NCBI GenBank assembly: GCA_029964075.1 | Contig: CM057140.1 | Span: 7,334,643-7,398,642, forward strand | DNA: 64,000 nucleotides | Direction: 5' to 3' | Source: Patiria pectinifera | Lineage: Eukaryota; Echinodermata; Asteroidea; Valvatida; Asterinidae | Part shown: in pieces, positions 7,831 through 64,000 of the stretch | Layout of the letters: the number at the start of each line of letters is the position of its first letter | How positions within the stretch are numbered: the stretch's first letter is position 1 | Notes under the pieces: generated by a model | What the model saw: the letters and a program-made list of their open reading frames with translations, nothing else | What the model was told of the DNA's origin: nothing | Database searches by the model: none | Position numbers and translations under genes: made by a program

Positions 7831-7873
7831 GGCTTGTGCAGAAGGTTACAATTGTTCAAAACAGGGTCACCAG

Positions 7874-35328: not shown

Positions 35329-36772
35329 GCTTGGCACTACCCGGAGCAATCTGATTTGAGGAGCCAGAAACTCGCCTTTCACACCTCTGCCGTCGGTTTT
35401 AAACAGGGGTCGGCACGATGAGCCAAGCAGGAGTTTGGGTGGGAGGCCATTTGAGATGCTGGCCATATGGGACATTAAATGGTTCAGGAAAGGCTCAATT
35501 TCCCCCCCTCCATCCCAGCCATCCTTACCCTTTAACCCCCGTGAGTGCGGTACTGCAGAAATACTGTACAACATCTTCATATTTGGATGCCAGGCACTAA
35601 AGAGTTGGTGATATTTTGCATTTAAATAAAATACAGGTCCTCAAAATTAATGTTAGCCCTAAAAGGGGGCGGATTCCCCTTTTTTTTCCGGTACCCTTGA
35701 AAAATTATTTATTTCGCACCCCGAGCTGTCCTGACCTTTTAGCCTCGAGTCTTACCAAAAACATAAAAAAAATATTCGGCGCTACCCACCGTCAAAACCG
35801 AATTTTCCTAAATACGTTGTATACACATTTGAATTACCATACATGTTTATGAATGATCAATTAGCCCATAATTCTAAAACCCTTTATTCTATAATTATAA
35901 TTTTTTGGGGGGGGGGGTATGTTTATGTTCAGTTGTTCTCACATGTACCGAGTTTCACAATTTTTCGTCACTCGATGGCCGAGGTCATGGGGTGGGGCGG
36001 AATTTGTGTGAAATGACCAAAAAAAAATAATTTCATTTTCCATTTCCCCATGTTTTCTTCAGCAAAACCTATCAATACATTAATAACATTTATTATAAAT
36101 ATTAATAATTCAACCAAATGTGATGTGCAAAAACCCTTCCGGAAGGCAAATTTTAGGTGAAAATGACTCATGAACTTTGACCTCAGGCCAAGGTCACTAT
36201 AAAGGTCAATAGAAAAAATGGCAACATCAATTTTCTTGTTTTCAGGACTCATGACATAAGATTACATTTAATGGTTGCCTTAATTAACATGAAATAATAT
36301 GTTAATCAGCATGTTAATATTTTAAAATATCCAAAATAATATACAAAGGGGCTTGTTTTATGTTTACAAGCTCGTATATCCAGGCTTTTGTTAACGGGGT
36401 TGTTGGGTATTTAGATTTAGATTTTGCATAACTGATCCCAATTTTTCTGCTATTAAAATATTTTAAAAGCGGGGGGGGGGAGGTACCAATTTTTGAAAAG
36501 ATGAAACTGTTACAGGATAAAGGGTACAAGCTTAAAACAAAGCTTAAACTGCAATAATTAATCAAGGGAAGATTTTCAAACTGTCTTTCTTTTTAGCCAA
36601 ATTAGTCAGGCAATTTAATAAATAATTCACAGATGGATTCGACATTTTTTGGGGGGCAATTGAGAATGTGAACTTCAATCGTTACATAAATTGTACAAAA
36701 AAGCAATCAAATAACATCAAGCTTACTATAAAACTGGAATAGGTTAACCATTCACACAAATAATCACAAGTA
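35329..36772. other. non-genic DNA
   Basis: No gene recognised. Homopolymer G runs near 35910 and 36472. Confidence 0.4.
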
Positions 36773-40306: not shown

Positions 40307-40308
40307 TA

Positions 40309-41745
40309 TAGGTTTTCCCGTCCAATTTCGCACTTAGTGTGCATGCAAGAGTATAAATAGTTCATTCAATTTTGCTATAGGGCAACCAAAAATTCAAACT
40401 AGTCATTCAAAATCGCCATAGGGCAGTCCAACAAGAAAAACAGTCATTCAGAATCACCATACGGCAGCCAAAAATTCATAATGGGCATTCAGATTCGCCA
40501 TAGAGCAATCAAAAGTGTAAAAGCAACATTCAGATTCGCCATAGTGCATTCAAGATAGCACGGAAGGACACGTGACTGAAGATAGAGCATTCAATTTCGC
40601 CATTGGGTATTCATGTTCATAACTAGTGCATTAAATTTTGCACTGTATTTACATGACTTGTATACAGTCATACATATTCAAATATTCTTTGCGCGTTTTT
40701 CCCAACCTGCAATATGTGTGCCACCAATGACCATTCATAAAACTTCACTGGACAATTTACATTTTTTTTTTACAGATGCCCGGACTTCGATAATTGTATT
40801 TGTTTTGTCTCCTAGAGGTGAAATGTAAATTATAGAAGCATTGGCCTGCTTATATTGCGCAAGTTATTTTGTTCCTCACCAGCGCCTTGGCGCAAATTGT
40901 ATATATATTTCTTTCATCTCCTTTGGTAATGCATTCTTTGCATTTCACCTTTTGGTTTCCACATATAGTTATCAGCAGCTTTAGAATTTACATTGGCAGA
41001 CATTACGCAATTAACATCAATTGTTACACATTCCTTTTCCTCCAAATGTACTGTGTATATTGGGTTAAATTTTAGAAAGGTATACATGCTATGTTTTATG
41101 TCTCTAGTCAATGCATATAATTGAAGAGATGGTGCAAATGACCACAAGTAAATATACATTATGAAAAAAAATTTACAAAGCTAAAAAAAAGGCATATAAA
41201 TTAACAGAGGAAAATGTAAGAAAATTTTCCCCATGTTAATTCATATGCCTTTGGGCCATCCGATAAATATGATTTTTATTCGGCGACTTAATATAGACAA
41301 AGTAAGCTCATAAAGTGGAAGAAGATATAAACATTAGAAAGCTATAAAAAAAAAATAGAAAAAAAATACATGTGCTAAATTGGATGCACAAATTGTATAA
41401 TTGGATGCCCTATGGCGAAATAGAATGCTCTAACTTAGCTCGAGGGGGTTTCAAGGGCAAACTTGGTTGCACTATGTACGAATTCGTATGCCGATTGGCG
41501 AATTTGGTTGCCCTACAGCGATTATGAATGCCAATTGGCCATCTTGGCTGCACTGTAGCGAATTTGAATGCCGATTGGTGATTTTGGCTGCCCTATAGCG
41601 AATTTGAATGCCGATTGGTTATTTTGGCTGCCCTATCCGCGAAATTGAATGACCTATTTATACTTTCTCATGCATTATGTGCGAAATTGAATGACCTATC
41701 TTTACTTTTGCATGCACTAAGTGCGAAATTGGACGGGAAAACCTA
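40309..41745. mobile_element. TAGGTTTTCCC-family TIR element, copy 2
   Basis: Closely similar to 36773-38396 throughout, flanked by TA (40307-40308, 41746-41747). It is shorter by ~190 bp in the centre and has one extra motif (ATTGAATGACCTATCTTTAC) in the right arm. The two copies are 1.9 kb apart in the same orientation. Confidence 0.8.
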
Positions 41746-42368: not shown

Positions 42369-44106
42369 AAGTTGGAACAATGATAACATTCATTTGCCGA
42401 TTAATGACTCATTAAGATTTTTGGTTGTCATAGCTAAGTGGGTCAGGTGGAAAAAAAATGAATACAAAAGCAATACAAGTAATTATAAAAAATATTGGTG
42501 AATTTGACAAATATAATGTTCAGATTTTTTTTAATGAAAGCCTTGGATTATCACTCCTTTAAGAAAACTTAAAGCAATCCATATCGATAGACAGGCTTTT
42601 TAAGGACAAATCTAAGTAATTGTCTCCATTGCACGGCCCAAGTTTTCTTGGACTGCTAAAGAAGGTGTTTTCCCCTCCTGCATTATTTTCCTCCGAAAAT
42701 CTAAAGCACTGAAATAGGAAGTGCATACTAGGCTTTTAAGCTTTTTTTTCACCAAAATGGGGAACATAAATAACTAGTTGCACTTGCTTATTTTTAAAAG
42801 CAACCTTATGTACTTTGGATCAACAAAACAATTTCCTTACCGATACACAGCGTTCTCAAATTGTGTGTGTGCATAAGAAATACTTGCATAATCAACTCAC
42901 CTCTTGGTGACTTTGTTAGCCAGTTGAAGTTGTTGAGTTGCTTGAAGGTTGTTAAGACGCTCCGGCATTTCCCACTGGATGACTCCTTGGTCAGGCCACT
43001 TCACTGCCTTAAACTTGTGCAGGAGGTTCCTTGGTGAGCTTGATCATGTGAGATGGATCAAGGAAGACATAGACTGATGTGCCTGGATGTGCAGGATGGT
43101 TGAAGTTAGGCTGAAGTTGATCCTTATTGAAACTTGCACTAATGACATAGCTACCTCTTCACTGTCTTCTTCAGTGACCCAAAGTCAACATATCTGGAAT
43201 GCTCGCTTAAGACCTCCATCATATTCTACATGTTGATTACAGTTAGCAGCAACCTATAAAAACAACAGCAGATATCGTAAAACTGGATCGCGTGGATTAT
43301 TTTTATTGAATACTAAGATGGCTTCATTGACGTTTCATTGATATTCAGCAGATTGGGGAATCAGGTTGGCGTAGCGGTACTTTCCTCGCCTTCCACCGCT
43401 GTGACCCGGGTTCGAATCACACCTGGGCCAATATGTGGATTGGGTTTTCAAGTCCCTACCTGATTCCGTGGGTTTTCCCCAAAATATTTTTCTGGGCTTT
43501 TCCTCCCACCTCTAAAACTGTAATATCTTCTCATTGTCGACTCTCTACAGATTTCGTCAGGCTTTCAGGCTACAGTGCCTAGGGCACTTTTGAGGAATCC
43601 TTGATTTCAGTACCAGAAAGAAATAAAATAAAAATAAATAAAATAGCAACATGCCCTGCCCTATGCAATTTGTGCAAACCTTTGTTAAAAATACTACCGC
43701 ATCAGTCCTTTTCACTGAAAATCCTGGAAATGGTACTGATCTGCAAATAAAACCTTCTACCCTTACAACACTTGTCGAGTCCAAATCTCCCCAACTTTTT
43801 AATAGAATCAATAACTTGCAAAAACTAAACAAATAATCCCTCAACTGAAACGTCTCATTTCCAGATGTACACTTCTGAACATTGAAATAGAACACTGAAA
43901 ACAAAATTGAAATTAGTGTTCACATTAAAAGATGGTCAAGCCTTGTTGCATTACCATAAAAGCCAATTTTGCACACACACAAAATGATTCATATCATTGT
44001 TTTCCTGAACCAATTCTGTTCTCATAAGCAATTGCATGAGAATGTATAATATGTATGCTTGGCACGGGACGCTAATTTTACATTGTCATTTTGAAGTTGT
44101 TTCGCC

Positions 44107-44264
44107 ATGATTGACCATCAAAACCTGCTGAAGCTTGTCCAACATGCCCAGTTAGGTCACTTCACTAATAGCAATCAGATATTCATAAGTTGGAACCTTG
44201 ATGGCATTCATTTGCCGATTAATGACTCATTAAGATTTTTGGTTGTCATAGCTAAGTGGGTCAG
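44107..44264 (+). other. candidate exon in the array unit (copy 2 shown)
   Basis: Open from ATG as MIDHQNLLKLVQHAQLGHF, NSNQIFISWN and PINDSLRFLVVIAKWVR, then CAG|GTGAAA. It corresponds to the 3' part of 9276-9470. The first codons differ because the array's unit junction falls just upstream. In the last array copies a base is missing in the ATGATTGACC stretch, which shifts the start. No family is recognised; it may not be coding. Confidence 0.25.
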
Positions 44265-44717
44265 GTGAAAAAAAAATGAATACAAAAGCAATACAAGTAA
44301 TTATAAAAAATATTGGTGAATTTGACAAATATAATGTTCAGATTTTTTTTACTGAAAGCCTTGGATTATCACTCCTTTAAGAAAACTTAAAGCAAGCCAT
44401 ATCGATAGACAGGCTTTTAAGGACAAATCTAAGTAATTGTCTCCATTGCACGGCCCAAGTTTTCTTGGACTGCTAAAGAAGGTGTTTTCCCCTCCTGCAT
44501 TATTTTCCTCCGAAAATCTAAAGCACTGAAATAGGAAGTGCATACTAGGCTTTTAAGCTTTTTTTTCACCAAAATGGGGAACATAAATAACTAGTTGCAC
44601 TTGCTTATTTTTAAAAGCAACCTTATGTACTTTGGATCAACAAAACAATTTCCTTACCGATACACAGCGTTCTCAAATTGTGTGTGTGCATAAGAAATAC
44701 TTGCATAATCAACTCAC

Positions 44718-45070
44718 CTCTTGGTGACTTTGTTAGCCAGTTGAAGTTGTTGAGTTGCTTGAAGGTTGTTAAGACGCTCCGGCATTTCCCACTGGATGAC
44801 TCCTTGGTCAGGCCACTTCACTGCCTTAAACTTGTGCAGGAGGTTCCTTGGTGAGCTTGATCATGTGAGATGGATCAAGGAAGACATAGACTGATGTGCC
44901 TGGATGTGCAGGATGGTTGAAGTTAGGCTGAAGTTGATCCTTATTGAAACTTGCACTAATGACATAGCTACCTCTTCACTGTCTTCTTCAGTGACCCAAA
45001 GTCAACATATCTGGAATGCTCGCTTAAGACCTCCATCATATTCTACATGTTGATTACAGTTAGCAGCAAC
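44718..45070 (-). pseudogene. P-element-like transposase exon, array copy 2 (12 copies in total)
   Basis: The exon runs from a TTTTTATAG acceptor to an AAGAG|GTGAGT donor on the minus strand. It encodes GTSVYVFLDPSHMIKLT, then one base out of frame RNLLHKFKAVKWPDQ and LQLANKVTKR, the conserved block of P/THAP9 transposases. The other copies have their low-coordinate ends at 42901, 46534, 48351, 50159, 51973, 53787, 55599, 57414, 59231, 61051 and 62871, and each spans 353 bp. The frameshift is in every copy. The first ~120 bp of the exon also contain an in-frame stop, so no copy can make transposase. Confidence 0.75.
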
Positions 45071-45164
45071 CTATAAAAACAACAGCAGATATCGTAAAAC
45101 TGGATCGCGTGGATTATTTTTATTGAATACTAAGATGGCTTCATTGACGTTTCATTGATATTCA

Positions 45165-45345
45165 GCAGATTGGGGAATCAGGTTGGCGTAGCGGTACTTT
45201 CCTCGCCTTCCACCGCTGTGACCCGGGTTCGAATCACACCTGGGCCAATATGTGGATTGGGTTTTCAAGTCCCTACCTGATTCCGTGGGTTTTCCCCAAA
45301 ATATTTTTCTGGGCTTTTCCTCCCACCTCTAAAACTGTAATATCT
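45165..45345 (+). mobile_element. tRNA-derived SINE in the array unit (copy 2 shown)
   Basis: A-box-like TGGCGTAGCGGT and B box GGTTCGAATCA are ~50 bp apart, ending the head in GGGCCA. The body has GGGTTTTCCCCAAAA and TTTTCCTCCCACC. One copy per unit, at the same place as in the dispersed P-like copy, on the opposite strand to the transposase exon. It could supply a pol III start in every unit. Confidence 0.7.
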
Positions 45346-48300
45346 TCTCATTGTCGACTCTCTACAGATTTCGTCAGGCTTTCAGGCTACAGTGCCTAGG
45401 GCACTTTTGAGGAATCCTTGATTTCAGTACCAGAAAGAAATAAAATAAAAATAAATAAAATAGCAACATGCCCTGCCCTATGCAATTTGTGCAAACCTTT
45501 TGTTAAAAATACTACCGCATCAGTCCTTTTCACTGAAAATCCTGGAAATGGTACTGATCTGCAAATAAAACCTTCTACCCTTACAACACTTGTCGAGTCC
45601 AAATCTCCCCAACTTTTTAATAGAATCAATAACTTGCAAAAACTAAACAAATAATCCCTCAACTGAAACGTCTCATTTCCAGATGTACACTTCTGAACAT
45701 TGAAATAGAACACTGAAAACAAAATTGAAATTAGTGTTCACATTAAAAGATGGTCAAGCCTTGTTGCATTACCATAAAAGCCAATTTTGCACACACACAA
45801 AATGATTCATATCATTGTTTTCCTGAACCAATTCTGTTCTCATAAGCAATTGCATGAGAATGTATAACATGTATGCTTGGAGGGGGAGGCTAATTTTACA
45901 TTGTCATTTTGAAGTTGTTTCGCCATGATTGACCATCAAAACCTGCTGAAGCTTGTCCAACATGCCCAGTTAGGTCACTTCACTAATAGCAATCAGATAT
46001 TCATAAGTTGGAACCTTGATGGCATTCATTTGCCGATTAATGACTCATTAAGATTTTTGGTTGTCATAGCTAAGTGGGTCAGGTGAAAAAAATGAATACA
46101 AAAGCAATACAAGTAATTATAAAAAATATTGGTGAATTTGACAAATATAATGTTCAGATTTTTTTTACTGAAAGCCTTGGATTATCACTCCTTTAAGAAA
46201 ACTTAAAGCAAGCCATATCGATAGACAGGCTTTTAAGGACAAATCTAAGTAATTGTCTCCATTGCACGGCCCAAGTTTTCTTGGACTGCTAAAGAAGGTG
46301 TTTTCCCCTCCTGCATTATTTTCCTCCGAAAATCTAAAGCACTGAAATAGGAAGTGCATACTAGGCTTTTAAGCTTTTTTTTCACCAAAATGGGGAACAT
46401 AAATAACTAGTTGCACTTGCTTATTTTTAAAAGCAACCTTATGTACTTTGGATCAACAAAACAATTTCCTTACCGATACACAGCGTTCTCAAATTGTGTG
46501 TGTGCATAAGAAATACTTGCATAATCAACTCACCTCTTGGTGACTTTGTTAGCCAGTTGAAGTTGTTGAGTTGCTTGAAGGTTGTTAAGACGCTCCGGCA
46601 TTTCCCACTGGATGACTCCTTGGTCAGGCCACTTCACTGCCTTAAACTTGTGCAGGAGGTTCCTTGGTGAGCTTGATCATGTGAGATGGATCAAGGAAGA
46701 CATAGACTGATGTGCCTGGATGTGCAGGATGGTTGAAGTTAGGCTGAAGTTGATCCTTATTGAAACTTGCACTAATGACATAGCTACCTCTTCACTGTCT
46801 TCTTCAGTGACCCAAAGTCAACATATCTGGAATGCTCGCTTAAGACCTCCATCATATTCTACATGTTGATTACAGTTAGCAGCAACCTATAAAAACAACA
46901 GCAGATATCGTAAAACTGGATCGCGTGGATTATTTTTATTGAATACTAAGATGGCTTCATTGACGTTTCATTGATATTCAGCAGATTGGGGAATCAGGTT
47001 GGCGTAGCGGTACTTTCCTCGCCTTCCACCGCTGTGACCCGGGTTCGAATCACACCTGGGCCAATATGTGGATTGGGTTTTCAAGTCCCTACCTGATTCC
47101 GTGGGTTTCCCCAAAATATTTTTCTGGGCTTTTCCTCCCACCTCTAAAACTGTAATATCTTCTCATTGTCGACTCTCTACAGATTTCGTCAGGCTTTCAG
47201 GCTACAGTGCCTAGGGCACTTTTGAGGAATCCTTGATTTCAGTACCAGAAAGAAATAAAATAAAAATAAATAAAATAGCAACATGCCCTGCCCTATGCAA
47301 TTTGTGCAAACCTTTTGTTAAAAATACTACCGCATCAGTCCTTTTCACTGAAAATCCTGGAAATGGTACTGATCTGCAAATAAAACCTTCTACCCTTACA
47401 ACACTTGTCGAGTCCAAATCTCCCCAACTTTTTAATAGAATCAATAACTTGCAAAAACTAAACAAATAATCCCTCAACTGAAACGTCTCATTTCCAGATG
47501 TACACTTCTGAACATTGAAATAGAACACTGAAAACAAAATTGAAATTAGTGTTCACATTAAAAGATGGTCAAGCCTTGTTGCATTACCATAAAAGCCAAT
47601 TTTGCACACACACAAAATGATTCATATCATTGTTTTCCTGAACCAATTCTGTTCTCATAAGCAATTGCATGAGAATGTATAACATGTATGCTTGGAGGGG
47701 GAGGCTAATTTTACATTGTCATTTTGAAGTTGTTTCGCCATGATTGACCATCAAAACCTGCTGAAGCTTGTCCAACATGCCCAGTTAGGTCACTTCACTA
47801 ATAGCAATCAGATATTCATAAGTTGGAACCTTGATGGCATTCATTTGCCGATTAATGACTCATTAAGATTTTTGGTTGTCATAGCTAAGTGGGTCAGGTG
47901 AAAAAAAAATGAATACAAAAGCAATACAAGTAATTATAAAAAATATTGGTGAATTTGACAAATATAATGTTCAGATTTTTTTTACTGAAAGCCTTGGATT
48001 ATCACTCCTTTAAGAAAACTTAAAGCAAGCCATATCGATAGACAGGCTTTTAAGGACAAATCTAAGTAATTGTCTCCATTGCACGGCCCAAGTTTTCTTG
48101 GACTGCTAAAGAAGGTGTTTTCCCCTCCTGCATTATTTTCCTCCGAAAATCTAAAGCACTGAAATAGGAAGTGCATACTAGGCTTTTAAGCTTTTTTTTC
48201 ACCAAAATGGGGAACATAAATAACTAGTTGCACTTGCTTATTTTTAAAAGCAACCTTATGTACTTTGGATCAACAAAACAATTTCCTTACCGATACACAG

Positions 48301-51300
48301 CGTTCTCAAATTGTGTGTGTGCATAAGAAATACTTGCATAATCAACTCACCTCTTGGTGACTTTGTTAGCCAGTTGAAGTTGTTGAGTTGCTTGAAGGTT
48401 GTTAAGACGCTCCGGCATTTCCCACTGGATGACTCCTTGGTCAGGCCACTTCACTGCCTTAAACTTGTGCAGGAGGTTCCTTGGTGAGCTTGATCATGTG
48501 AGATGGATCAAGGAAGACATAGACTGATGTGCCTGGATGTGCAGGATGGTTGAAGTTAGGCTGAAGTTGATCCTTATTGAAACTTGCACTAATGACATAG
48601 CTACCTCTTCACTGTCTTCTTCAGTGACCCAAAGTCAACATATCTGGAATGCTCGCTTAAGACCTCCATCATATTCTACATGTTGATTACAGTTAGCAGC
48701 AACCTATAAAAACAACAGCAGATATCGTAAAACTGGATCGCGTGGATTATTTTTATTGAATACTAAGATGGCTTCATTGACGTTTCATTGATATTCAGCA
48801 GATTGGGGAATCAGGTTGGCGTAGCGGTACTTTCCTCGCCTTCCACCGCTGTGACCCGGGTTCGAATCACACCTGGGCCAATATGTGGATTGGGTTTTCA
48901 AGTCCCTACCTGATTCCGTGGGTTTTCCCCAAAATATTTTTCTGGGCTTTTCCTCCCACCTCTAAAACTGTAATATCTTCTCATTGTCGACTCTCTACAG
49001 ATTTCGTCAGGCTTTCAGGCTACAGTGCCTAGGGCACTTTTGAGGAATCCTTGATTTCAGTACCAGAAAGAAATAAAATAAAAATAAATAAAATAGCAAC
49101 ATGCCCTGCCCTATGCAATTTGTGCAAACCTTTTGTTAAAAATACTACTGCATCAGTCCTTTTCACTGAAAATCCTGGAAATGGTACTGATCTGCAAATA
49201 AAACCTTCTACCCTTACAACACTTGTCGAGTCCAAATCTCCCCAACTTTTTAATAGAATCAATAACTTGCAAAAACTAAACAAATAATCCCTCAACTGAA
49301 ACGTCTCATTTCCAGATGTACACTTCTGAACATTGAAATAGAACACTGAAAACAAAATTGAAATTAGTGTTCACATTAAAAGATGGTCAAGCCTTGTTGC
49401 ATTACCATAAAAGCCAATTTTGCACACACACAAAATGATTCATATCATTGTTTTCCTGAACCAATTCTGTTCTCATAAGCAATTGCATGAGAATGTATAA
49501 CATGTATGCTTGGAGGAGGCTAATTTTACATTGTCATTTTGAAGTTGTTTCGCCATGATTGACCATCAAAACCTGCTGAAGCTTGTCCAACATGCCCAGT
49601 TAGGTCACTTCACTAATAGCAATCAGATATTCATAAGTTGGAACCTTGATGGCATTCATTTGCCGATTAATGACTCATTAAGATTTTTGGTTGTCATAGC
49701 TAAGTGGGTCAGGTGAAAAAAATGAATACAAAAGCAATACAAGTAATTATAAAAATATTGGTGAATTTGACAAATATAATGTTCAGATTTTTTTTACTGA
49801 AAGCCTTGGATTATCACTCCTTTAAGAAAACTTAAAGCAAGCCATATCGATAGACAGGCTTTTAAGGACAAATCTAAGTAATTGTCTCCATTGCACGGCC
49901 CAAGTTTTCTTGGACTGCTAAAGAAGGTGTTTTCCTCCTGCATTATTTTCCTCCGAAAATCTAAAGCACTGAAATAGGAAGTGCATACTAGGCTTTTAAG
50001 CTTTTTTCACCAAAATGGGGAACATAAATAACTAGTTGCACTTGCTTATTTTTAAAAGCAACCTTATGTACTTTGGATCAACAAAACAATTTCCTTACCG
50101 ATACACAGCGTTCTCAAATTGTGTGTGTGCATAAGAAATACTTGCATAATCAACTCACCTCTTGGTGACTTTGTTAGCCAGTTGAAGTTGTTGAGTTGCT
50201 TGAAGGTTGTTAAGACGCTCCGGCATTTCCCACTGGATGACTCCTTGGTCAGGCCACTTCACTGCCTTAAACTTGTGCAGGAGGTTCCTTGGTGAGCTTG
50301 ATCATGTGAGATGGATCAAGGAAGACATAGACTGATGTGCCTGGATGTGCAGGATGGTTGAAGTTAGGCTGAAGTTGATCCTTATTGAAACTTGCACTAA
50401 TGACATAGCTACCTCTTCACTGTCTTCTTCAGTGACCCAAAGTCAACATATCTGGAATGCTCGCTTAAGACCTCCATCATATTCTACATGTTGATTACAG
50501 TTAGCAGCAACCTATAAAAACAACAGCAGATATCGTAAAACTGGATCGCGTGGATTATTTTTATTGAATACTAAGATGGCTTCATTGACGTTTCATTGAT
50601 ATTCAGCAGATTGGGGAATCAGGTTGGCGTAGCGGTACTTTCCTCGCCTTCCACCGCTGTGACCCGGGTTCGAATCACACCTGGGCCAATATGTGGATTG
50701 GGTTTTCAAGTCCCTACCTGATTCCGTGGGTTTTCCCCAAAATATTTTTCTGGGCTTTTCCTCCCACCTCTAAAACTGTAATATCTTCTCATTGTCGACT
50801 CTCTACAGATTTCGTCAGGCTTTCAGGCTACAGTGCCTAGGGCACTTTTGAGGAATCCTTGATTTCAGTACCAGAAAGAAATAAAATAAAAATAAATAAA
50901 ATAGCAACATGCCCTGCCCTATGCAATTTGTGCAAACCTTTGTTAAAAATACTACCGCATCAGTCCTTTTCACTGAAAATCCTGGAAATGGTACTGATCT
51001 GCAAATAAAACCTTCTACCCTTACAACACTTGTCGAGTCCAAATCTCCCCAACTTTTTAATAGAATCAATAACTTGCAAAAACTAAACAAATAATCCCTC
51101 AACTGAAACGTCTCATTTCCAGATGTACACTTCTGAACATTGAAATAGAACACTGAAAACAAAATTGAAATTAGTGTTCACATTAAAAGATGGTCAAGCC
51201 TTGTTGCATTACCATAAAAGCCAATTTTGCACACACACAAAATGATTCATATCATTGTTTTCCTGAACCAATTCTGTTCTCATAAGCAATTGCATGAGAA

Positions 51301-54300
51301 TGTATAACATGTATGCTTGGAGGAGGCTAATTTTACATTGTCATTTTGAAGTTGTTTCGCCATGATTGACCATCAAAACCTGCTGAAGCTTGTCCAACAT
51401 GCCCAGTTAGGTCACTTCACTAATAGCAATCAGATATTCATAAGTTGGAACCTTGATGGCATTCATTTGCCGATTAATGACTCATTAAGATTTTTGGTTG
51501 TCATAGCTAAGTGGGTCAGGTGAAAAAAAAATGAATACAAAAGCAATACAAGTAATTTTTGAAAATATTGGTGAATTTGACAAATATAATGTTCAGATTT
51601 TTTTTACTGAAAGCCTTGGATTATCACTCCTTTAAGAAAACTTAAAGCAAGCCATATCGATAGACAGGCTTTTAAGGACAAATCTAAGTAATTGTCTCCA
51701 TTGCACGGCCCAAGTTTTCTTGGACTGCTAAAGAAGGTGTTTTCCCCTCCTGCATTATTTTCCTCCGAAAATCTAAAGCACTGAAATAGGAAGTGCATAC
51801 TAGGCTTTTAAGCTTTTTTTTCACCAAAATGGGGAACATAAATAACTAGTTGCACTTGCTTATTTTTAAAAGCAACCTTATGTACTTTGGATCAACAAAA
51901 CAATTTCCTTACCGATACACAGCGTTCTCAAATTGTGTGTGTGCATAAGAAATACTTGCATAATCAACTCACCTCTTGGTGACTTTGTTAGCCAGTTGAA
52001 GTTGTTGAGTTGCTTGAAGGTTGTTAAGACGCTCCGGCATTTCCCACTGGATGACTCCTTGGTCAGGCCACTTCACTGCCTTAAACTTGTGCAGGAGGTT
52101 CCTTGGTGAGCTTGATCATGTGAGATGGATCAAGGAAGACATAGACTGATGTGCCTGGATGTGCAGGATGGTTGAAGTTAGGCTGAAGTTGATCCTTATT
52201 GAAACTTGCACTAATGACATAGCTACCTCTTCACTGTCTTCTTCAGTGACCCAAAGTCAACATATCTGGAATGCTCGCTTAAGACCTCCATCATATTCTA
52301 CATGTTGATTACAGTTAGCAGCAACCTATAAAAACAACAGCAGATATCGTAAAACTGGATCGCGTGGATTATTTTTATTGAATACTAAGATGGCTTCATT
52401 GACGTTTCATTGATATTCAGCAGATTGGGGAATCAGGTTGGCGTAGCGGTACTTTCCTCGCCTTCCACCGCTGTGACCCGGGTTCGAATCACACCTGGGC
52501 CAATATGTGGATTGGGTTTTCAAGTCCCTACCTGATTCCGTGGGTTTTCCCCAAAATATTTTTCTGGGCTTTTCCTCCCACCTCTAAAACTGTAATATCT
52601 TCTCATTGTCGACTCTCTACAGATTTCGTCAGGCTTTCAGGCTACAGTGCCTAGGGCACTTTTGAGGAATCCTTGATTTCAGTACCAGAAAGAAATAAAA
52701 TAAAAATAAATAAAATAGCAACATGCCCTGCCCTATGCAATTTGTGCAAACCTTTGTTAAAAATACTACCGCATCAGTCCTTTTCACTGAAAATCCTGGA
52801 AATGGTACTGATCTGCAAATAAAACCTTCTACCCTTACAACACTTGTCGAGTCCAAATCTCCCCAACTTTTTAATAGAATCAATAACTTGCAAAAACTAA
52901 ACAAATAATCCCTCAACTGAAACGTCTCATTTCCAGATGTACACTTCTGAACATTGAAATAGAACACTGAAAACAAAATTGAAATTAGTGTTCACATTAA
53001 AAGATGGTCAAGCCTTGTTGCATTACCATAAAAGCCAATTTTGCACACACACAAAATGATTCATATCATTGTTTTCCTGAACCAATTCTGTTCTCATAAG
53101 CAATTGCATGAGAATGTATAACATGTATGCTTGGAGGAGGCTAATTTTACATTGTCATTTTGAAGTTGTTTCGCCATGATTGACCATCAAAACCTGCTGA
53201 AGCTTGTCCAACATGCCCAGTTAGGTCACTTCACTAATAGCAATCAGATATTCATAAGTTGGAACCTTGATGGCATTCATTTGCCGATTAATGACTCATT
53301 AAGATTTTTGGTTGTCATAGCTAAGTGGGTCAGGTGAAAAAAAAATGAATACAAAAGCAATACAAGTAATTATAAAAAATATTGGTGAATTTGACAAATA
53401 TAATGTTCAGATTTTTTTTACTGAAAGCCTTGGATTATCACTCCTTTAAGAAAACTTAAAGCAAGCCATATCGATAGACAGGCTTTTAAGGACAAATCTA
53501 AGTAATTGTCTCCATTGCACGGCCCAAGTTTTCTTGGACTGCTAAAGAAGGTGTTTTCCCCTCCTGCATTATTTTCCTCCGAAAATCTAAAGCACTGAAA
53601 TAGGAAGTGCATACTAGGCTTTTAAGCTTTTTTTTCACCAAAATGGGGAACATAAATAACTAGTTGCACTTGCTTATTTTTAAAAGCAACCTTATGTACT
53701 TTGGATCAACAAAACAATTTCCTTACCGATACACAGCGTTCTCAAATTGTGTGTGTGCATAAGAAATACTTGCATAATCAACTCACCTCTTGGTGACTTT
53801 GTTAGCCAGTTGAAGTTGTTGAGTTGCTTGAAGGTTGTTAAGACGCTCCGGCATTTCCCACTGGATGACTCCTTGGTCAGGCCACTTCACTGCCTTAAAC
53901 TTGTGCAGGAGGTTCCTTGGTGAGCTTGATCATGTGAGATGGATCAAGGAAGACATAGACTGATGTGCCTGGATGTGCAGGATGGTTGAAGTTAGGCTGA
54001 AGTTGATCCTTATTGAAACTTGCACTAATGACATAGCTACCTCTTCACTGTCTTCTTCAGTGACCCAAAGTCAACATATCTGGAATGCTCGCTTAAGACC
54101 TCCATCATATTCTACATGTTGATTACAGTTAGCAGCAACCTATAAAAACAACAGCAGATATCGTAAAACTGGATCGCGTGGATTATTTTTATTGAATACT
54201 AAGATGGCTTCATTGACGTTTCATTGATATTCAGCAGATTGGGGAATCAGGTTGGCGTAGCGGTACTTTCCTCGCCTTCCACCGCTGTGACCCGGGTTCG

Positions 54301-57300
54301 AATCACACCTGGGCCAATATGTGGATTGGGTTTTCAAGTCCCTACCTGATTCCGTGGGTTTCCCCAAAATATTTTTCTGGGCTTTTCCTCCCACCTCTAA
54401 AACTGTAATATCTTCTCATTGTCGACTCTCTACAGATTTCGTCAGGCTTTCAGGCTACAGTGCCTAGGGCACTTTTGAGGAATCCTTGATTTCAGTACCA
54501 GAAAGAAATAAAATAAAAATAAATAAAATAGCAACATGCCCTGCCCTATGCAATTTGTGCAAACCTTTTGTTAAAAATACTACCGCATCAGTCCTTTTCA
54601 CTGAAAATCCTGGAAATGGTACTGATCTGCAAATAAAACCTTCTACCCTTACAACACTTGTCGAGTCCAAATCTCCCCAACTTTTTAATAGAATCAATAA
54701 CTTGCAAAAACTAAACAAATAATCCCTCAACTGAAACGTCTCATTTCCAGATGTACACTTCTGAACATTGAAATAGAACACTGAAAACAAAATTGAAATT
54801 AGTGTTCACATTAAAAGATGGTCAAGCCTTGTTGCATTACCATAAAAGCCAATTTTGCACACACACAAAATGATTCATATCATTGTTTTCCTGAACCAAT
54901 TCTGTTCTCATAAGCAATTGCATGAGAATGTATAACATGTATGCTTGGAGGGAGGCTAATTTTACATTGTCATTTTGAAGTTGTTTCGCCATGATTGACC
55001 ATCAAAACCTGCTGAAGCTTGTCCAACATGCCCAGTTAGGTCACTTCACTAATAGCAATCAGATATTCATAAGTTGGAACCTTGATGGCATTCATTTGCC
55101 GATTAATGACTCATTAAGATTTTTGGTTGTCATAGCTAAGTGGGTCAGGTGAAAAAAATGAATACAAAAGCAATACAAGTAATTATAAAAAATATTGGTG
55201 AATTTGACAAATATAATGTTCAGATTTTTTTTACTGAAAGCCTTGGATTATCACTCCTTTAAGAAAACTTAAAGCAAGCCATATCGATAGACAGGCTTTT
55301 AAGGACAAATCTAAGTAATTGTCTCCATTGCACGGCCCAAGTTTTCTTGGACTGCTAAAGAAGGTGTTTTCCTCCTGCATTATTTTCCTCCGAAAATCTA
55401 AAGCACTGAAATATGAATTGCATACTAGGCTTTTAACCTTTTGTTTTCACCAAAATGGGGAACATAAATAACTAGTTGCACTTGCTTATTTTTAAAAGCA
55501 ACCTTATGTACTTTGGATCAACAAAACAATTTCCTTACCGATACACAGCGTTCTCAAATTGTGTGTGTGCATAAGAAATACTTGCATAATCAACTCACCT
55601 CTTGGTGACTTTGTTAGCCAGTTGAAGTTGTTGAGTTGCTTGAAGGTTGTTAAGACGCTCCGGCATTTCCCACTGGATGACTCCTTGGTCAGGCCACTTC
55701 ACTGCCTTAAACTTGTGCAGGAGGTTCCTTGGTGAGCTTGATCATGTGAGATGGATCAAGGAAGACATAGACTGATGTGCCTGGATGTGCAGGATGGTTG
55801 AAGTTAGGCTGAAGTTGATCCTTATTGAAACTTGCACTAATGACATAGCTACCTCTTCACTGTCTTCTTCAGTGACCCAAAGTCAACATATCTGGAATGC
55901 TCGCTTAAGACCTCCATCATATTCTACATGTTGATTACAGTTAGCAGCAACCTATAAAAACAACAGCAGATATCGTAAAACTGGATCGCGTGGATTATTT
56001 TTATTGAATACTAAGATGGCTTCATTGACGTTTCATTGATATTCAGCAGATTGGGGAATCAGGTTGGCGTAGCGGTACTTTCCTCGCCTTCCACCGCTGT
56101 GACCCGGGTTCGAATCACACCTGGGCCAATATGTGGATTGGGTTTTCAAGTCCCTACCTGATTCCGTGGGTTTCCCCAAAATATTTTTCTGGGCTTTTCC
56201 TCCCACCTCTAAAACTGTAATATCTTCTCATTGTCGACTCTCTACAGATTTCGTCAGGCTTTCAGGCTACAGTGCCTAGGGCACTTTTGAGGAATCCTTG
56301 ATTTCAGTACCAGAAAGAAATAAAATAAAAATAAATAAAATAGCAACATGCCCTGCCCTATGCAATTTGTGCAAACCTTTTGTTAAAAATACTACCGCAT
56401 CAGTCCTTTTCACTGAAAATCCTGGAAATGGTACTGATCTGCAAATAAAACCTTCTACCCTTACAACACTTGTCGAGTCCAAATCTCCCCAACTTTTTAA
56501 TAGAATCAATAACTTGCAAAAACTAAACAAATAATCCCTCAACTGAAACGTCTCATTTCCAGATGTACACTTCTGAACATTGAAATAGAACACTGAAAAC
56601 AAAATTGAAATTAGTGTTCACATTAAAAGATGGTCAAGCCTTGTTGCATTACCATAAAAGCCAATTTTGCACACACACAAAATGATTCATATCATTGTTT
56701 TCCTGAACCAATTCTGTTCTCATAAGCAATTGCATGAGAATGTATAACATGTATGCTTGGAGGGAGGCTAATTTTACATTGTCATTTTGAAGTTGTTTCG
56801 CCATGATTGACCATCAAAACCTGCTGAAGCTTGTCCAACATGCCCAGTTAGGTCACTTCACTAATAGCAATCAGATATTCATAAGTTGGAACCTTGATGG
56901 CATTCATTTGCCGATTAATGACTCATTAAGATTTTTGGTTGTCATAGCTAAGTGGGTCAGGTGAAAAAAAAATGAATACAAAAGCAATACAAGTAATTAT
57001 AAAAAATATTGGTGAATTTGACAAATATAATGTTCAGATTCTTTTAACTGAAAGCCTTGGATTATCACTCCTTTAAGAAAACTTAAAGCAAGCCATATCG
57101 ATAGACAGGCTTTTAAGGACAAATCTAAGTAATTGTCTCCATTGCACGGCCCAAGTTTTCTTGGACTGCTAAAGAAGGTGTTTTCCCCTCCTGCATTATT
57201 TTCCTCCGAAAATCTAAAGCACTGAAATAGGAAGTGCATACTAGGCTTTTAAGCTTTTTTTTCACCAAAATGGGGAACATAAATAACTAGTTGCACTTGC

Positions 57301-60300
57301 TTATTTTTAAAAGCAACCTTATGTACTTTGGATCAACAAAACAATTTCCTTACCGATACACAGCGTTCTCAAATTGTGTGTGTGCATAAGAAATACTTGC
57401 ATAATCAACTCACCTCTTGGTGACTTTGTTAGCCAGTTGAAGTTGTTGAGTTGCTTGAAGGTTGTTAAGACGCTCCGGCATTTCCCACTGGATGACTCCT
57501 TGGTCAGGCCACTTCACTGCCTTAAACTTGTGCAGGAGGTTCCTTGGTGAGCTTGATCATGTGAGATGGATCAAGGAAGACATAGACTGATGTGCCTGGA
57601 TGTGCAGGATGGTTGAAGTTAGGCTGAAGTTGATCCTTATTGAAACTTGCACTAATGACATAGCTACCTCTTCACTGTCTTCTTCAGTGACCCAAAGTCA
57701 ACATATCTGGAATGCTCGCTTAAGACCTCCATCATATTCTACATGTTGATTACAGTTAGCAGCAACCTATAAAAACAACAGCAGATATCGTAAAACTGGA
57801 TCGCGTGGATTATTTTTATTGAATACTAAGATGGCTTCATTGACGTTTCATTGATATTCAGCAGATTGGGGAATCAGGTTGGCGTAGCGGTACTTTCCTC
57901 GCCTTCCACCGCTGTGACCCGGGTTCGAATCACACCTGGGCCAATATGTGGATTGGGTTTTCAAGTCCCTACCTGATTCCGTGGGTTTTCCCCAAAATAT
58001 TTTTCTGGGCTTTTCCTCCCACCTCTAAAACTGTAATATCTTCTCATTGTCGACTCTCTACAGATTTCGTCAGGCTTTCAGGCTACAGTGCCTAGGGCAC
58101 TTTTGAGGATCCTTGATTTCAGTACCAGAAAGAAATAAAATAAAAATAAATAAAATAGCAACATGCCCTGCCCTATGCAATTTGTGCAAACCTTTTGTTA
58201 AAAATACTACCGCATCAGTCCTTTTCACTGAAAATCCTGGAAATGGTACTGATCTGCAAATAAAACCTTCTACCCTTACAACACTTGTCGAGTCCAAATC
58301 TCCCCAACTTTTTAATAGAATCAATAACTTGCAAAAACTAAACAAATAATCCCTCAACTGAAACGTCTCATTTCCAGATGTACACTTCTGAACATTGAAA
58401 TAGAACACTGAAAACAAAATTGAAATTAGTGTTCACATTAAAAGATGGTCAAGCCTTGTTGCATTACCATAAAAGCCAATTTTGCACACACACAAAATGA
58501 TTCATATCATTGTTTTCCTGAACCAATTCTGTTCTCATAAGCAATTGCATGAGAATGTATAACATGTATGCTTGGAGGGGGAGGCTAATTTTACATTGTC
58601 ATTTTGAAGTTGTTTCGCCATGATTGACCATCAAAACCTGCTGAAGCTTGTCCAACATGCCCAGTTAGGTCACTTCACTAATAGCAATCAGATATTCATA
58701 AGTTGGAACCTTGATGGCATTCATTTGCCGATTAATGACTCATTAAGATTTTTGGTTGTCATAGCTAAGTGGGTCAGGTGAAAAAAAAATGAATACAAAA
58801 GCAATACAAGTAATTATAAAAAATATTGGTGAATTTGACAAATATAATGTTCAGATTTTTTTTACTGAAAGCCTTGGATTATCACTCCTTTAAGAAAACT
58901 TAAAGCAAGCCATATCGATAGACAGGCTTTTAAGGACAAATCTAAGTAATTGTCTCCATTGCACGGCCCAAGTTTTCTTGGACTGCTAAAGAAGGTGTTT
59001 TCCCCTCCTGCATTATTTTCCTCCGAAAATCTAAAGCACTGAAATAGGAAGTGCATACTAGGCTTTTAAGCTTTTTTTTCACCAAAATGGGGAACATAAA
59101 TAACTAGTTGCACTTGCTTATTTTTAAAAGCAACCTTATGTACTTTGGATCAACAAAACAATTTCCTTACCGATACACAGCGTTCTCAAATTGTGTGTGT
59201 GCATAAGAAATACTTGCATAATCAACTCACCTCTTGGTGACTTTGTTAGCCAGTTGAAGTTGTTGAGTTGCTTGAAGGTTGTTAAGACGCTCCGGCATTT
59301 CCCACTGGATGACTCCTTGGTCAGGCCACTTCACTGCCTTAAACTTGTGCAGGAGGTTCCTTGGTGAGCTTGATCATGTGAGATGGATCAAGGAAGACAT
59401 AGACTGATGTGCCTGGATGTGCAGGATGGTTGAAGTTAGGCTGAAGTTGATCCTTATTGAAACTTGCACTAATGACATAGCTACCTCTTCACTGTCTTCT
59501 TCAGTGACCCAAAGTCAACATATCTGGAATGCTCGCTTAAGACCTCCATCATATTCTACATGTTGATTACAGTTAGCAGCAACCTATAAAAACAACAGCA
59601 GATATCGTAAAACTGGATCGCGTGGATTATTTTTATTGAATACTAAGATGGCTTCATTGACGTTTCATTGATATTCAGCAGATTGGGGAATCAGGTTGGC
59701 GTAGCGGTACTTTCCTCGCCTTCCACCGCTGTGACCCGGGTTCGAATCACACCTGGGCCAATATGTGGATTGGGTTTTCAAGTCCCTACCTGATTCCGTG
59801 GGTTTTCCCCAAAATATTTTTCTGGGCTTTTCCTCCCACCTCTAAAACTGTAATATCTTCTCATTGTCGACTCTCTACAGATTTCGTCAGGCTTTCAGGC
59901 TACAGTGCCTAGGGCACTTTTGAGGAATCCTTGATTTCAGTACCAGAAAGAAATAAAATAAAAATAAATAAAATAGCAACATGCCCTGCCCTATGCAATT
60001 TGTGCAAACCTTTTGTTTAAAATACTACTGCATCAGTCCTTTTCACTGAAAATCCTGGAAATGGTACTGATCTGCAAATAAAACCTTCTACCCTTACAAC
60101 ACTTGTCGAGTCCAAATCTCCCCAACTTTTTAATAGAATCAATAACTTGCAAAAACTAAACAAATAATCCCTCAACTGAAACGTCTCATTTCCAGATGTA
60201 CACTTCTGAACATTGAAATAGAACACTGAAAACAAAATTGAAATTAGTGTTCACATTAAAAGATGGTCAAGCCTTGTTGCATTACCATAAAAGCCAATTT

Positions 60301-63300
60301 TGCACACACACAAAATGATTCATGACATTGTTTTCCTGAACCAATTCTGTTTTCATAAGCAATTGCATGAGAATGTATAACATGTATGCTTGGAGGGGGA
60401 GGCTAATTTTACATAGTCATTTTGAAGTTGTTTCGCCATGATGACCATCAAAACCTGCTGAAGCTTGTCCAACATGCCCAGTTAGGTCACTTCACTAATA
60501 CCAATCAGATATTCATAAGTTGGAACCTTGATGACATTCATTTGCCGATTAATGACTCATTAAGATTTTTGGTTGTCATAGCTAAGTGGGTCAGGTGAAA
60601 AAAAAAATGAATACAAAAGCAATACAAGTAATTATAAAAAATATTGGTGAATTTGACAAATATAATGTTCAGATTTTTTTTACTAAAAGCCTTGGATTAT
60701 CACTCCTTTAAGAAAACTTAAAGCAAGCCATATCGATAGACAGGCTTTTAAGGACAAATCTAAGTAATTGTCTCCATTGCACGGCCCAAGTTTTCTTGGA
60801 CTGCTAAAGAAGGTGTTTTCCCCTCCTGCATTATTTTCCTCCGAAAATCTAAAGCACTGAAATAGGAAGTGCATACTAGGCTTTTAAGCTTTTGTTTTCA
60901 CCAAAATGGGGAACATAAATAACTAGTTGCACTTGCTTATTTTTAAAAGCAACCTTATGTACTTTGGATCAACAAAACAATTTCCTTACCGATAATACAG
61001 CTTTCTCATATTATGTGTGTGCATAAGAAATACTTGCATAATCAACTCACCTCTTGGTGACTTTGTTAGCCAGTTGAAGTTGTTGAGTTGCTTGAAGGTT
61101 GTTAAGACGCTCCGGCATTTCCCACTGGATGACTCCTTGGTCAGGCCACTTCACTGCCTTAAACTTGTGCAGGAGGTTCCTTGGTGAGCTTGATCATGTG
61201 AGATGGATCAAGGAAGACATAGACTGATGTGCCTGGATGTGCAGGATGGTTGAAGTTAGGCTGAAGTTGATCCTTATTGAAACTTGCACTAATGACATAG
61301 CTACCTCTTCACTGTCTTCTTCAGTGACCCAAAGTCAACATATCTGGAATGCTCGCTTAAGACCTCCATCATATTCTACATGTTGATTACAGTTAGCAGC
61401 AACCTATAAAAACAACAGCAGATATCGTAAAACTGGATCGCGTGGATTATTTTTATTGAATACTAAGATGGCTTCATTGACGTTTCATTGATATTCAGCA
61501 GATTGGGGAATCAGGTTGGCGTAGCGGTACTTTCCTCGCCTTCCACCGCTGTGACCCGGGTTCGAATCACACCTGGGCCAATATGTGGATTGGGTTTTCA
61601 AGTCCCTACCTGATTCCGTGGGTTTTCCCCAAAATATTTTTCTGGGCTTTTCCTCCCACCTCTAAAACTGTAATATCTTCTCATTGTCGACTCTCTACAG
61701 ATTTCGTCAGGCTTTCAGGCTACAGTGCCTAGGGCACTTTTGAGGAATCCTTGATTTCAGTACCAGAAAGAAATAAAATAAAAATAAATAAAATAGCAAC
61801 ATGCCCTGCCCTATGCAATTTGTGCAAACCTTTAGTTTAAAATACTACTGCATCAGTCCTTTTCACTGAAAATCCTGGAAATGGTACTGATCTGCAAATA
61901 AAACCTTCTACCCTTACAACACTTGTCGAGTCCAAATCTCCCCAACTATTTAATAGAATCAATAACTTGCAAAAACTAAACAAATAATCCCTCAACTGAA
62001 ACGTCTCATTTCCAGATGTACACTTCTGAACATTGAAATAGAACACTGAAAACAAAATTGAAATTAGTGTTCACATTAAAAGATGGTCAAGCCTTGTTGC
62101 ATTACCATAAAAGCCAATTTTGCACACACACAAAATGATTCATGACATTGTTTTCCTGAACCAATTCTGTTTTCATAAGCAATTGCATGAGAATGTATAA
62201 CATGTATGCTTGGAGGGGGAGGCTAATTTTACATAGTCATTTTGAAGTTGTTTCGCCATGATGACCATCAAAACCTGCTGAAGCTTGTCCAACATGCCCA
62301 GTTAGGTCACTTCACTAATACCAATCAGATATTCATAAGTTGGAACCTTGATGACATTCATTTGCCGATTAATGACTCATTAAGATTTTTGGTTGTCATA
62401 GCTAAGTGGGTCAGGTGAAAAAAAAAATGAATACAAAAGCAATACAAGTAATTATAAAAAATATTGGTGAATTTGACAAATATAATGTTCAGATTTTTTT
62501 TACTAAAAGCCTTGGATTATCACTCCTTTAAGAAAACTTAAAGCAAGCCATATCGATAGACAGGCTTTTAAGGACAAATCTAAGTAATTGTCTCCATTGC
62601 ACGGCCCAAGTTTTCTTGGACTGCTAAAGAAGGTGTTTTCCCCTCCTGCATTATTTTCCTCCGAAAATCTAAAGCACTGAAATAGGAAGTGCATACTAGG
62701 CTTTTAAGCTTTTGTTTTCACCAAAATGGGGAACATAAATAACTAGTTGCACTTGCTTATTTTTAAAAGCAACCTTATGATCTTTGGATCAACAAAACAA
62801 TTTCCTTACCGATAATACAGCTTTCTCATATTATGTGTGTGCATAAGAAATACTTGCATAATCAACTCACCTCTTGGTGACTTTGTTAGCCAGTTGAAGT
62901 TGTTGAGTTGCTTGAAGGTTGTTAAGACGCTCCGGCATTTCCCACTGGATGACTCCTTGGTCAGGCCACTTCACTGCCTTAAACTTGTGCAGGAGGTTCC
63001 TTGGTGAGCTTGATCATGTGAGATGGATCAAGGAAGACATAGACTGATGTGCCTGGATGTGCAGGATGGTTGAAGTTAGGCTGAAGTTGATCCTTATTGA
63101 AACTTGCACTAATGACATAGCTACCTCTTCACTGTCTTCTTCAGTGACCCAAAGTCAACATATCTGGAATGCTCGCTTAAGACCTCCATCATATTCTACA
63201 TGTTGATTACAGTTAGCAGCAACCTATAAAAACAACAGCAGATATCGTAAAACTGGATCGCGTGGATTATTTTTATTGAATACTAAGATGGCTTCATTGA

Positions 63301-64000
63301 CGTTTCATTGATATTCAGCAGATTGGGGAATCAGGTTGGCGTAGCGGTACTTTCCTCGCCTTCCACCGCTGTGACCCGGGTTCGAATCACACCTGGGCCA
63401 ATATGTGGATTGGGTTTTCAAGTCCCTACCTGATTCCGTGGGTTTTCCCCAAAATATTTTTCTGGGCTTTTCCTCCCACCTCTAAAACTGTAATATCTTC
63501 TCATTGTCGACTCTCTACAGATTTCGTCAGGCTTTCAGGCTACAGTGCCTAGGGCACTTTTGAGGAATCCTTGATTTCAGTACCAGAAAGAAATAAAATA
63601 AAAATAAATAAAATAGCAACATGCCCTGCCCTATGCAATTTGTGCAAACCTTTTGTTTAAAATACTACTGCATCAGTCCTTTTCACTGAAAATCCTGGAA
63701 ATGGTACTGATCTGCAAATAAAACCTTCTACCCTTACAACACTTGTCGAGTCCAAATCTCCCCAACTATTTAATAGAATCAATAACTTGCAAAAACTAAA
63801 CAAATAATCCCTCAACTGAAACGTCTCATTTCCAGATGTACACTTCTGAACATTGAAATAGAACACTGAAAACAAAATTGAAATTAGTGTTCACATTAAA
63901 AGATGGTCAAGCCTTGTTGCATTACCATAAAAGCCAATTTTGCACACACACAAAATGATTCATAACATTGTTTTCCTGAACCAATTCTGTTCTCATAAGC

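Follow-up and report, generated by a model that had tools for sequence, protein, structure and literature searches.

Near-identical units of about 1815 bp, each holding a dead fragment of a P-type transposase gene, run head to tail for 24.1 kb on contig C12 of Patiria pectinifera. This array is confirmed as real and is not a chance likeness. It begins at position 42369 of the window (the whole 64,000-nucleotide stretch that was analysed) and continues for 2.5 kb beyond the window end, with no N along its length. A second array, built mainly on a distinct unit from the same remnant, lies at a paralogous site on C15. We think it probable that the array is an amplified pseudogene fragment without function: a dead gene would have been duplicated in tandem by end joining and then multiplied by unequal exchange.

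Extent and anatomy of the C12 array

Compared with the window by blastn, one unit matched 11 complete copies over 42744-62711, preceded by a partial one of 375 bp at 42369 and followed by another that the window end cuts off. When the following 20 kb of genome was added, the array ended at 66499 and comprised 13 complete units and two partial ends; the twelve units counted in the earlier sequence-only reading were thus nearly right. Complete units are 1781-1820 bp long and all share one orientation. Their pairwise identity is 98.8-100%, with a mean of 99.5% (13 complete units, partial ends excluded and gaps left out), as homogeneous as a satellite or tandem array should be. Units 2, 3, 6 and 9 show no differences at aligned bases, so the assembler could have miscounted them and the exact copy number is assembly-dependent. 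The main features are as follows.

42369-64000, on to 66499 (G000:C12:7377011-7401141), plus strand: tandem array of ~1815-bp units (blastn and extended window)
50002-51815, plus strand: representative unit, the fifth complete one; unit position 1 is window position 50001 (blastn)
50159-50511, minus strand: P-transposase exon-3 remnant, with pieces of RNase H N and the start of the GTP-binding domain (profile match, exon comparison, bases)
51103-51133, minus strand: 3' end of exon 2 (exon comparison, bases read)
50610-50903, plus strand: SINE in intron 2, on the strand opposite to the transposase; A box 50625, B box 50667 (pattern match)

On the minus strand, each unit carries the remnant of a P-transposase exon (Pfam TNP-like_GBD) with introns on both sides, and a stub of the preceding exon. 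PF21788 (TNP-like_GBD) matched the unit with an E value of 1e-5 and 26.4 bits against a Pfam cut-off of 24.8, and an inverted relative of the unit in the window also passed this cut-off. The exon order of the unit matches that of a P gene family in the same genome with HTH, RNase H N, GBD and RNase H C domains. These matches support the earlier proposal of a P-type transposase origin and place the source gene in the P-element/THAP9 superfamily. Many tandem copies of the GBD exon occur at least on C12 and C15, and only there among the 150 of 171 candidates scored.

The gene fragment is badly damaged. Exon 3 measures 353 bp in the unit versus about 570 bp in the P family, its middle has been deleted, and the remnant shows a frameshift and an in-frame stop. 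Both the acceptor and the donor of exon 3 are intact in 13/13 units; the exon-2 donor reads TT in place of GT in the same 13, so the splice sites noted earlier stand for exon 3 and fall for exon 2. The unit holds two exon remnants only and, as judged from exon order, no gene 5' end; it has no intact reading frame carrying the catalytic residues. It cannot code, as had been claimed from the letters. Because the defects are common to all units, the damage predates amplification.

The SINE that had been reported in each unit is indeed there: A and B boxes fit tRNA-type patterns in 13/13 units, and SINE-like copies lie on many further contigs. On the SINE strand, T runs begin 36 bp (4 T), 64 bp (4 T) and 78 bp (5 T) beyond the first base of the B box. 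A Pol III transcript would be expected to end at such runs, long before it reaches the exon. Rfam at gathering scores gave no match within the array; its sole match in the window is tRNA-like, at 15695-15767. A scan for bacterial promoters and terminators returned matches at chance level only, with bacterial models that are not apt for animal DNA.

A second array on C15 and the origin of both

The array is not confined to a single locus, a point that the sequence-only reading had raised for checking. Array sequence is also found on C15, as a second array, and older relatives of the unit are found on C17. Much of the window before the C12 array has a counterpart on C15. The features of this part of the window, and the C15 array itself, are as follows.

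1-39106, no strand: segmental duplicate whose counterpart is G000:C15:12471037-12517203; the order is colinear, interrupted by inserts and by stretches without a match, and the pieces are 79-97% identical
1734-9435, plus strand: one SINE-bearing relative of the unit in inverted orientation, in pieces 8318-9435, 4685-4959 and 1734-1897; transposase sense plus (blastn)
4961-8317, minus strand: LTR retrotransposon inside the inverted copy, with reverse transcriptase and protease matches (profile match)
30609-35332, no strand: satellite with a 23-bp unit, placed after the inverted copy and before the array (repeat analysis)
C15:12517218-12610470, one orientation: the C15 array (sequence comparison)

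The two LTRs (4961-5404 and 7874-8317) differ at 5/444 sites. Relatives of the 23-bp satellite keep this order on C15, and others precede the C17 copies by about 8 kb.

Beginning 15 bp past the end of the C15 duplicate, the C15 array extends for about 93 kb. It contains several interleaved repeat types, mainly a unit of about 662 bp together with longer composites, and its monomers have a mean identity of 98.2% (lowest pair 93.5%; 86 monomers from 92 starts). Both arrays lie mid-contig, at 7.4 of 15.4 Mb on C12 and at 12.6 of 22.8 Mb on C15. The C12 junction joins unit positions 1358|1359 with a period of 1815, and the C15 junction joins 423|1562 with a period of about 662; these differing junctions have an overlap of 0-1 bp. 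Mean divergence is 0.5% within the C12 array, 1.8% within the C15 array and about 4% between them. The last figure comes from the C12 unit and the last C15 unit: of 1361 sites, 29 and 25 are private and another 3 differ. The most diverged pair of C15 monomers (6.5%) exceeds the average C12/C15 difference. Both arrays are young.

The exon-2 donor bears on their ancestry. TT is present in 13/13 C12 units, in 6/6 long C15 units and in the last C15 unit, and both inverted copies keep GT; hence both arrays come from one array-type ancestor. Since the junctions differ and divergence within each array is below the mean between them, the two amplifications look separate, although they appear to start from one dead gene.

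The most probable history is as follows. A P-type transposase gene copy would have died through deletions, a frameshift and donor loss, and would have acquired the SINE, next to a 23-bp satellite. The segment with the dead gene and the satellite would later have passed as a copy from one of the two contigs, C12 and C15, to the other. Once the two were separate, the fragment would have been tandemly duplicated on each contig independently, at different and essentially non-homologous junctions. Unequal exchange and conversion would then have multiplied the units and preserved their likeness. Unit anatomy, the paralogous location, the differing junctions and the order of divergences are the directly observed parts. 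We infer that end-joining or template switching set off the process, that unequal exchange amplified it and that no function was selected; the earlier suggestion of unequal exchange as a likely amplifier is supported.

The 184-bp block and the P family

Part of the unit evolves slowly, around a match to the P family (L040).

50122-50305, no strand: 184-bp block around the L040 match, invariant in 13/13 units and in the window's inverted copy
50149-50190, minus strand: exact match of 42 bases to the L040 P family, 32 in the exon and 10 in the intron, in 13/13 units

Within the block, 1/184 sites varies among four paralogues that differ at 12% elsewhere. Such near-constancy is unexpected for plain dead DNA and, as far as sequence comparison goes, counts against a functionless array. 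Among C12 units, variable sites number 0/184 in the block versus 31/1630 outside (p 0.07). C15 monomers gave 19/182 versus 137/482 (p 4e-7), and 18/182 versus 96/482 (p 0.002) when six outliers were removed. Variants carried by at least two C15 monomers are weakly depleted in the block (10/182 versus 49/482, p 0.07); those carried by at least four are not (6/182 versus 18/482). The exon part beside the block is similarly singleton-poor in these monomers. We therefore rejected selection as a reading of the rare-variant shortage in the C15 block, because common variants are undepleted and the adjoining exon is also poor in singletons.

Could gene conversion between inverted copies and arrays have homogenised the block, with selection not needed? 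We put the chances of this at about even. The one variable site, 176, reads A in the C12 array unit and the C12 inverted copy and G in the last unit and inverted copy of C15, the pattern that conversion confined to the pair on each chromosome would give. The block also lacks a signal of RNA structure on the transposase-sense strand (z -0.17) and has a weak one on the opposite strand (z -1.93). However, conversion within chromosomes predicts about 7 C12/C15 differences in 184 bp, given 54/1361 elsewhere, and 1 is observed. A further difficulty lies in unit positions 155-301, where the C15 monomer consensus differs from the C12 unit at 2/147 sites and the C15 inverted copy and last unit differ at 1/147; hence monomer sequence has not replaced that of the C15 inverted copy and last unit. 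The monomer consensus is the commonest possible conversion donor on C15.

The P family has at least eight copies at 99-100% identity among the 40 of 127 candidates scored, seven over the full 573-bp query and one over 37-573. Its exons match PF12017 (HTH, 5.6e-15), PF21787 (RNase H N, 2.6e-36) and PF21789 (RNase H C, 1.5e-16), with open exons of 191 and 444 codons. The eight near-identical copies suggest that the family may be able to move. Two copies on C1 are alike throughout the 10 kb compared (98-99%), a likeness that segmental duplication would equally produce. Of two 400-bp pieces flanking a C14 copy, one matched and the other did not. Terminal inverted repeats and an 8-bp target duplication were not found in 10 kb around one relative; a 39-bp inverted pair considered as the family's end proved to be poly-G/poly-C, with no 8-bp duplication. 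The family's ends were not found; judged from exon order, the array junctions are probably not element ends.

Alternative readings and precedents

A circle of the remnant could have been replicated, by rolling-circle or extrachromosomal amplification, and reinserted as a ready tandem array. Complete units in the same phase with a single junction would fit, and passages of PMC9659126 ascribe Bari1 repeat clusters to an anomalous rolling-circle mechanism. Three observations make this unlikely. The edges of the array correspond to unit positions 1442 and 186, away from the junction; the four right-end units 10-13 form a more diverged group, as stepwise exchange predicts, although left-end unit 1 does not; and the interleaved C15 repeat types are hard to derive from one circle.

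The arrays might instead be a silencing locus, whose transcripts would yield piRNAs or siRNAs repressing mobile P elements, a role that would maintain the 184-bp block and favour high copy number. Suppression of dysgenesis by a telomeric P copy is a small-RNA mechanism. Passages of PMC7776569 give the precedent, a P copy in telomere-associated sequence that suppresses dysgenesis in Drosophila melanogaster. A multiplied P family with open exons is present, the slow block surrounds the 42 bases shared with it (27 of them kept in 48/86 C15 monomers), and the units of each array share one orientation. We nevertheless regard this reading as unlikely. Over 362 bp, a stretch that takes in the 42 bases, unit and family are 77.6% identical; the family is itself only putatively mobile, the C1 pair being open to segmental duplication; the unit lacks the gene 5' end; the T runs following the B box tell against the SINE as driver; and common C15 variants are undepleted in the block. 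The exact exon-3 donor word, moreover, is present in 48/86 C15 monomers, with GTTAG in 27. Very improbable, in our view, is a stronger form in which the host would retain the arrays to remember P elements, the block would be selected, and transcripts would silence the recently multiplied family via the exon 3/intron junction of unspliced RNA.

False expansion of a short repeat by the assembler, which several units identical at aligned bases might suggest, is scarcely credible given the varying unit lengths and private changes, the gap-free C12 array and the separate array with a different period at the paralogous site.

How do these arrays compare with known repeats? P units of Drosophila guanche reportedly keep a repressor-like frame, without element ends; the open frame that marks such a repressor cluster is absent here, where the unit has a frameshift, a stop and two exon remnants. 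SGM and Tetris reportedly derive from non-autonomous elements, from the terminal parts of elements or from tandem repeats inside them. P-homologous tandem repeats are on record in D. guanche (Miller et al. 1992, PNAS 89:4018, as cited in passages of PMC3072357 and PMC8616336), and PMC8616336 cites them as the first P-derived host genes. Both cases have P-transposase sequence head to tail; here, however, the repeated piece is frameshifted, comes from inside the gene with parts of two exons and carries a SINE, and two loci were amplified with different units. PMC9659126 and PMC6947457 describe SGM in D. guanche as a transposon-derived satellite, and Tetris in D. virilis is likewise so described. 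These too are tandem arrays from transposon sequence, whereas the unit here, on the accounts available, differs in being an exon-intron-exon stretch of a transposase gene. The Bari1 cluster of D. melanogaster, a tandem cluster of a DNA transposon, has about 80 repeats attributed to a rolling-circle event with reintegration (PMC9659126); here a gene fragment is repeated, and C15 repeat types are interleaved. Tandem P insertions in D. melanogaster also place P copies in tandem, with junctions sized as the P target duplication (same source), whereas ours are within the gene and overlap by 0-1 bp. Outside Drosophila, a literature search covering few subscription papers found no P-transposase tandem array among the titles and opening lines of abstracts that were listed.

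Given the D. guanche precedent, P-derived tandem repeats are not new in kind. New here are the inverted SINE-bearing relative, the C15 duplicate with its second array, the differing junctions, which make the two amplifications look separate, the 42-base match to a P family and the 184-bp block. The birth of a satellite is mostly known only afterwards. One assembly here holds source-like copies, two separate arrays of the same ancestor, both junctions and a near relative with many near-identical copies, so that the order of events (gene death, SINE, chromosomal copying, separate amplification) is readable. The slow 184-bp block is a concrete object for a test. If silencing were true, these tandem arrays would have in the telomeric P copies of flies, which repress P elements, their counterpart.

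The array on C12 and its unit

The window lies at G000:C12:7334643-7398642 in the genome assembly (613.5 Mb, 1020 contigs). Used as a query against it, a mid-array unit matched 11 full copies, flanked by a 375-bp partial copy at 42369 and a copy truncated at the window end. The sequence-only reading had counted twelve near-identical units of ~1815 bp. The array is present, and the count was nearly right: with 20 kb of further sequence added, we observed 13 complete units (1781-1820 bp) and two partial ends, 24.1 kb in total with 0 N, and the array passes the window end to stop at 66499 (window numbering carried on). Pairwise identity among the complete units is 98.8-100% (mean 99.5%, gaps excluded); units 2, 3, 6 and 9 show no differences at aligned bases, and the more diverged group is units 10-13, at the right end. 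Just before the array lies a local duplication (window 36771-38382 versus 40307-41689, 93-94% identity); it contains 40-bp-period repeats, and most of its sequence has no counterpart on contig C15.

Features of the representative unit (window 50001-51815; unit position 1 is 50001)
50511-50159, minus strand: exon 3 remnant of P transposase; acceptor and donor present in 13/13 units
50610-50903, plus strand, opposite to the transposase: intron 2 SINE; A and B boxes in 13/13 units
51133-51103, minus strand: exon 2 end; donor GT changed to TT in 13/13 units

The exon-3 piece matches Pfam TNP-like_GBD at 26.4 bits (cut-off 24.8). Compared with L040, a related P family of the same genome that gives HTH, RNase H N, GBD and RNase H C domain matches, the unit can be aligned exon by exon over exons 2 and 3; its exon 3 lacks the middle and has a frameshift ahead of the GBD part and a stop near that part's start. 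Judged from its sequence, the unit cannot produce transposase, in agreement with the sequence-only reading. Since the damage is common to all units, amplification came later than the damage. Splice sites had also been claimed for each unit, which holds for the exon-3 acceptor and donor but not for the exon-2 donor. The exon-3 donor sits within a short perfect hairpin (window 50155-50168) in 13/13 units, and the hairpin is also found in the L040 family; it could mask the exon-3 splice site.

Relatives on C15 and elsewhere

Window 1-39106 is colinear with C15:12471037-12517203, interrupted by unmatched stretches. A single inverted copy with SINE runs from 9435 to 1734 in the window and is split by the insertion of an LTR retrotransposon (5/444 sites differ between its two LTRs). 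The C15 duplicate also holds an inverted copy and a 23-bp-unit satellite, in unchanged order. In the window this satellite occupies 30609-35332 (~4.7 kb; 71-79% in its long matches); its relatives form arrays on C15, C17, C6 and, weakly, C10, and on C12, C15 and C17 the satellite has P copies close by. We found no colinear C15 match for the 17.5 kb following the C12 array.

A second array starts on C15 15 bases past the duplicate's end and runs to 12610470, ~93 kb including inserts. Its main repeat, ~662 bp, consists of unit positions 1562-1815 plus 1-423. Of 92 monomer starts six were excluded; the 86 usable monomers (636-666 bp) have a mean identity of 98.2% (lowest pair 93.5%). Longer composites bearing ~1.4 kb extra also occur, and the last unit is nearly complete, with SINE. 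Two elements are inserted in this array, with direct terminal repeats of 355 bp (100%) and 161 bp (100%). The insert with the 355-bp repeats (7.9 kb, G000:C15:12568641-12576564) is probably very young because those repeats are identical.

A ~1.4-kb sequence has a few copies at window 15135-19763 and ~nine tandem repeats on C15 at ~12483000-12499000 (loci L010-L012); the duplicated segment thus gave rise to another array. Diverged inverted relatives of it lie past the C12 array, at window-extended 68100-69364. At window 15695-15767 there is a tRNA-like match (RF00005, 45.5 bits; ARAGORN anticodon undetermined), probably a SINE head, and at 17250-17603 a reverse transcriptase fragment (RVT_1, 1.5e-11).

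Genome-wide DNA and protein searches (37/1952 and 150/171 candidates scored, both giving lower bounds) placed related P sequence on at least C12, C15 and C17, with P relatives at 63-80% protein identity in at least the L040 family and C106. C1 yielded two weak matches (34%, E 0.07-0.10), which belong to other P genes. The C17 copies are older (73-97% identity by piece); the one examined has no SINE and contains a partial local duplication, with a sequence related to the 23-bp satellite ~8 kb ahead of it. The P GTP-binding domain has at least 56 matches genome-wide, several within single open frames of 549-748 codons; several P families may therefore be intact.

Order of events and the slow block

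The exon-2 donor is TT in 13/13 C12 units, 6/6 C15 long units and the last C15 unit, and GT in both inverted copies. Hence, both arrays descend from one array-type copy. We compared four paralogues (a C12 unit, the last C15 unit and the two inverted copies) at 1361 ungapped sites outside a slow block. Arrays are separated from inverted copies at 69 sites. A further 29 and 25 sites are each specific to one of the two array-type copies, which puts the difference between the array types at ~4%, more than the mean within-array divergence (0.5% C12, 1.8% C15). Unit junctions fall at 1358|1359 on C12 and 423|1562 on C15, with an overlap of at most 1 base each. Given these different junctions and the higher between-array divergence, the two expansions appear to be separate and to postdate the copying between contigs. 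The same evidence points to end-joining or template switching as the likely trigger, which unequal exchange would have followed; a rival is amplification through a circle intermediate.

Unit 122-305, the slow block, shows no differences among 13/13 C12 units and the window's inverted copy; the next such stretch shared by unit and inverted copy has a length of 55. Among the four paralogues 1/184 block sites vary, versus 165/1361 elsewhere (Fisher 8e-9, an optimistic value since the block was picked after its identity was noticed). Perhaps gene conversion keeps the block alike? The one variable site suggests so, each chromosome's own pair sharing a base there. However, conversion within chromosomes would leave ~7 inter-chromosome differences, not one. 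Agreement with L040 is 154/183 in the block versus 244/346 around it, perhaps a trace of coding constraint from the time before the copies died. Of the older C17 copies, one agrees better inside the block (168/183 versus 232/277), the other hardly so (149/170 versus 281/330). Structure prediction on the block found nothing outstanding in its RNA structure.

The L040 family and known P repeats

Among 40/127 candidates scored, at least eight genome copies match L040 exon 3 at 99-100%, seven of them along the entire 573-bp query and one along 37-573; a ninth copy reaches 95%. The family may therefore have moved recently; as its two C1 copies are alike across 10 kb, part of these copies could instead stem from segmental duplication. 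Across 362 bp the array unit has 77.6% identity to L040, but 42 consecutive bases spanning the exon 3/intron 3 junction are common to L040 and 13/13 C12 units; in 48/86 C15 monomers the stretch shared with L040 is 27 bases. The 42-base sharing is compatible with small-RNA targeting, without proving it. The SINE is a poor candidate driver of exon transcription: on its strand, T runs of 4, 4 and 5 begin 36, 64 and 78 bp past the B-box start.

P-homologous tandem repeats are reportedly on record in Drosophila guanche, and satellites derived from transposons are described as common. Unlike those systems, the unit here is an internal, non-coding gene fragment, and one ancestor appears to have been amplified twice separately, into different units at paralogous sites.
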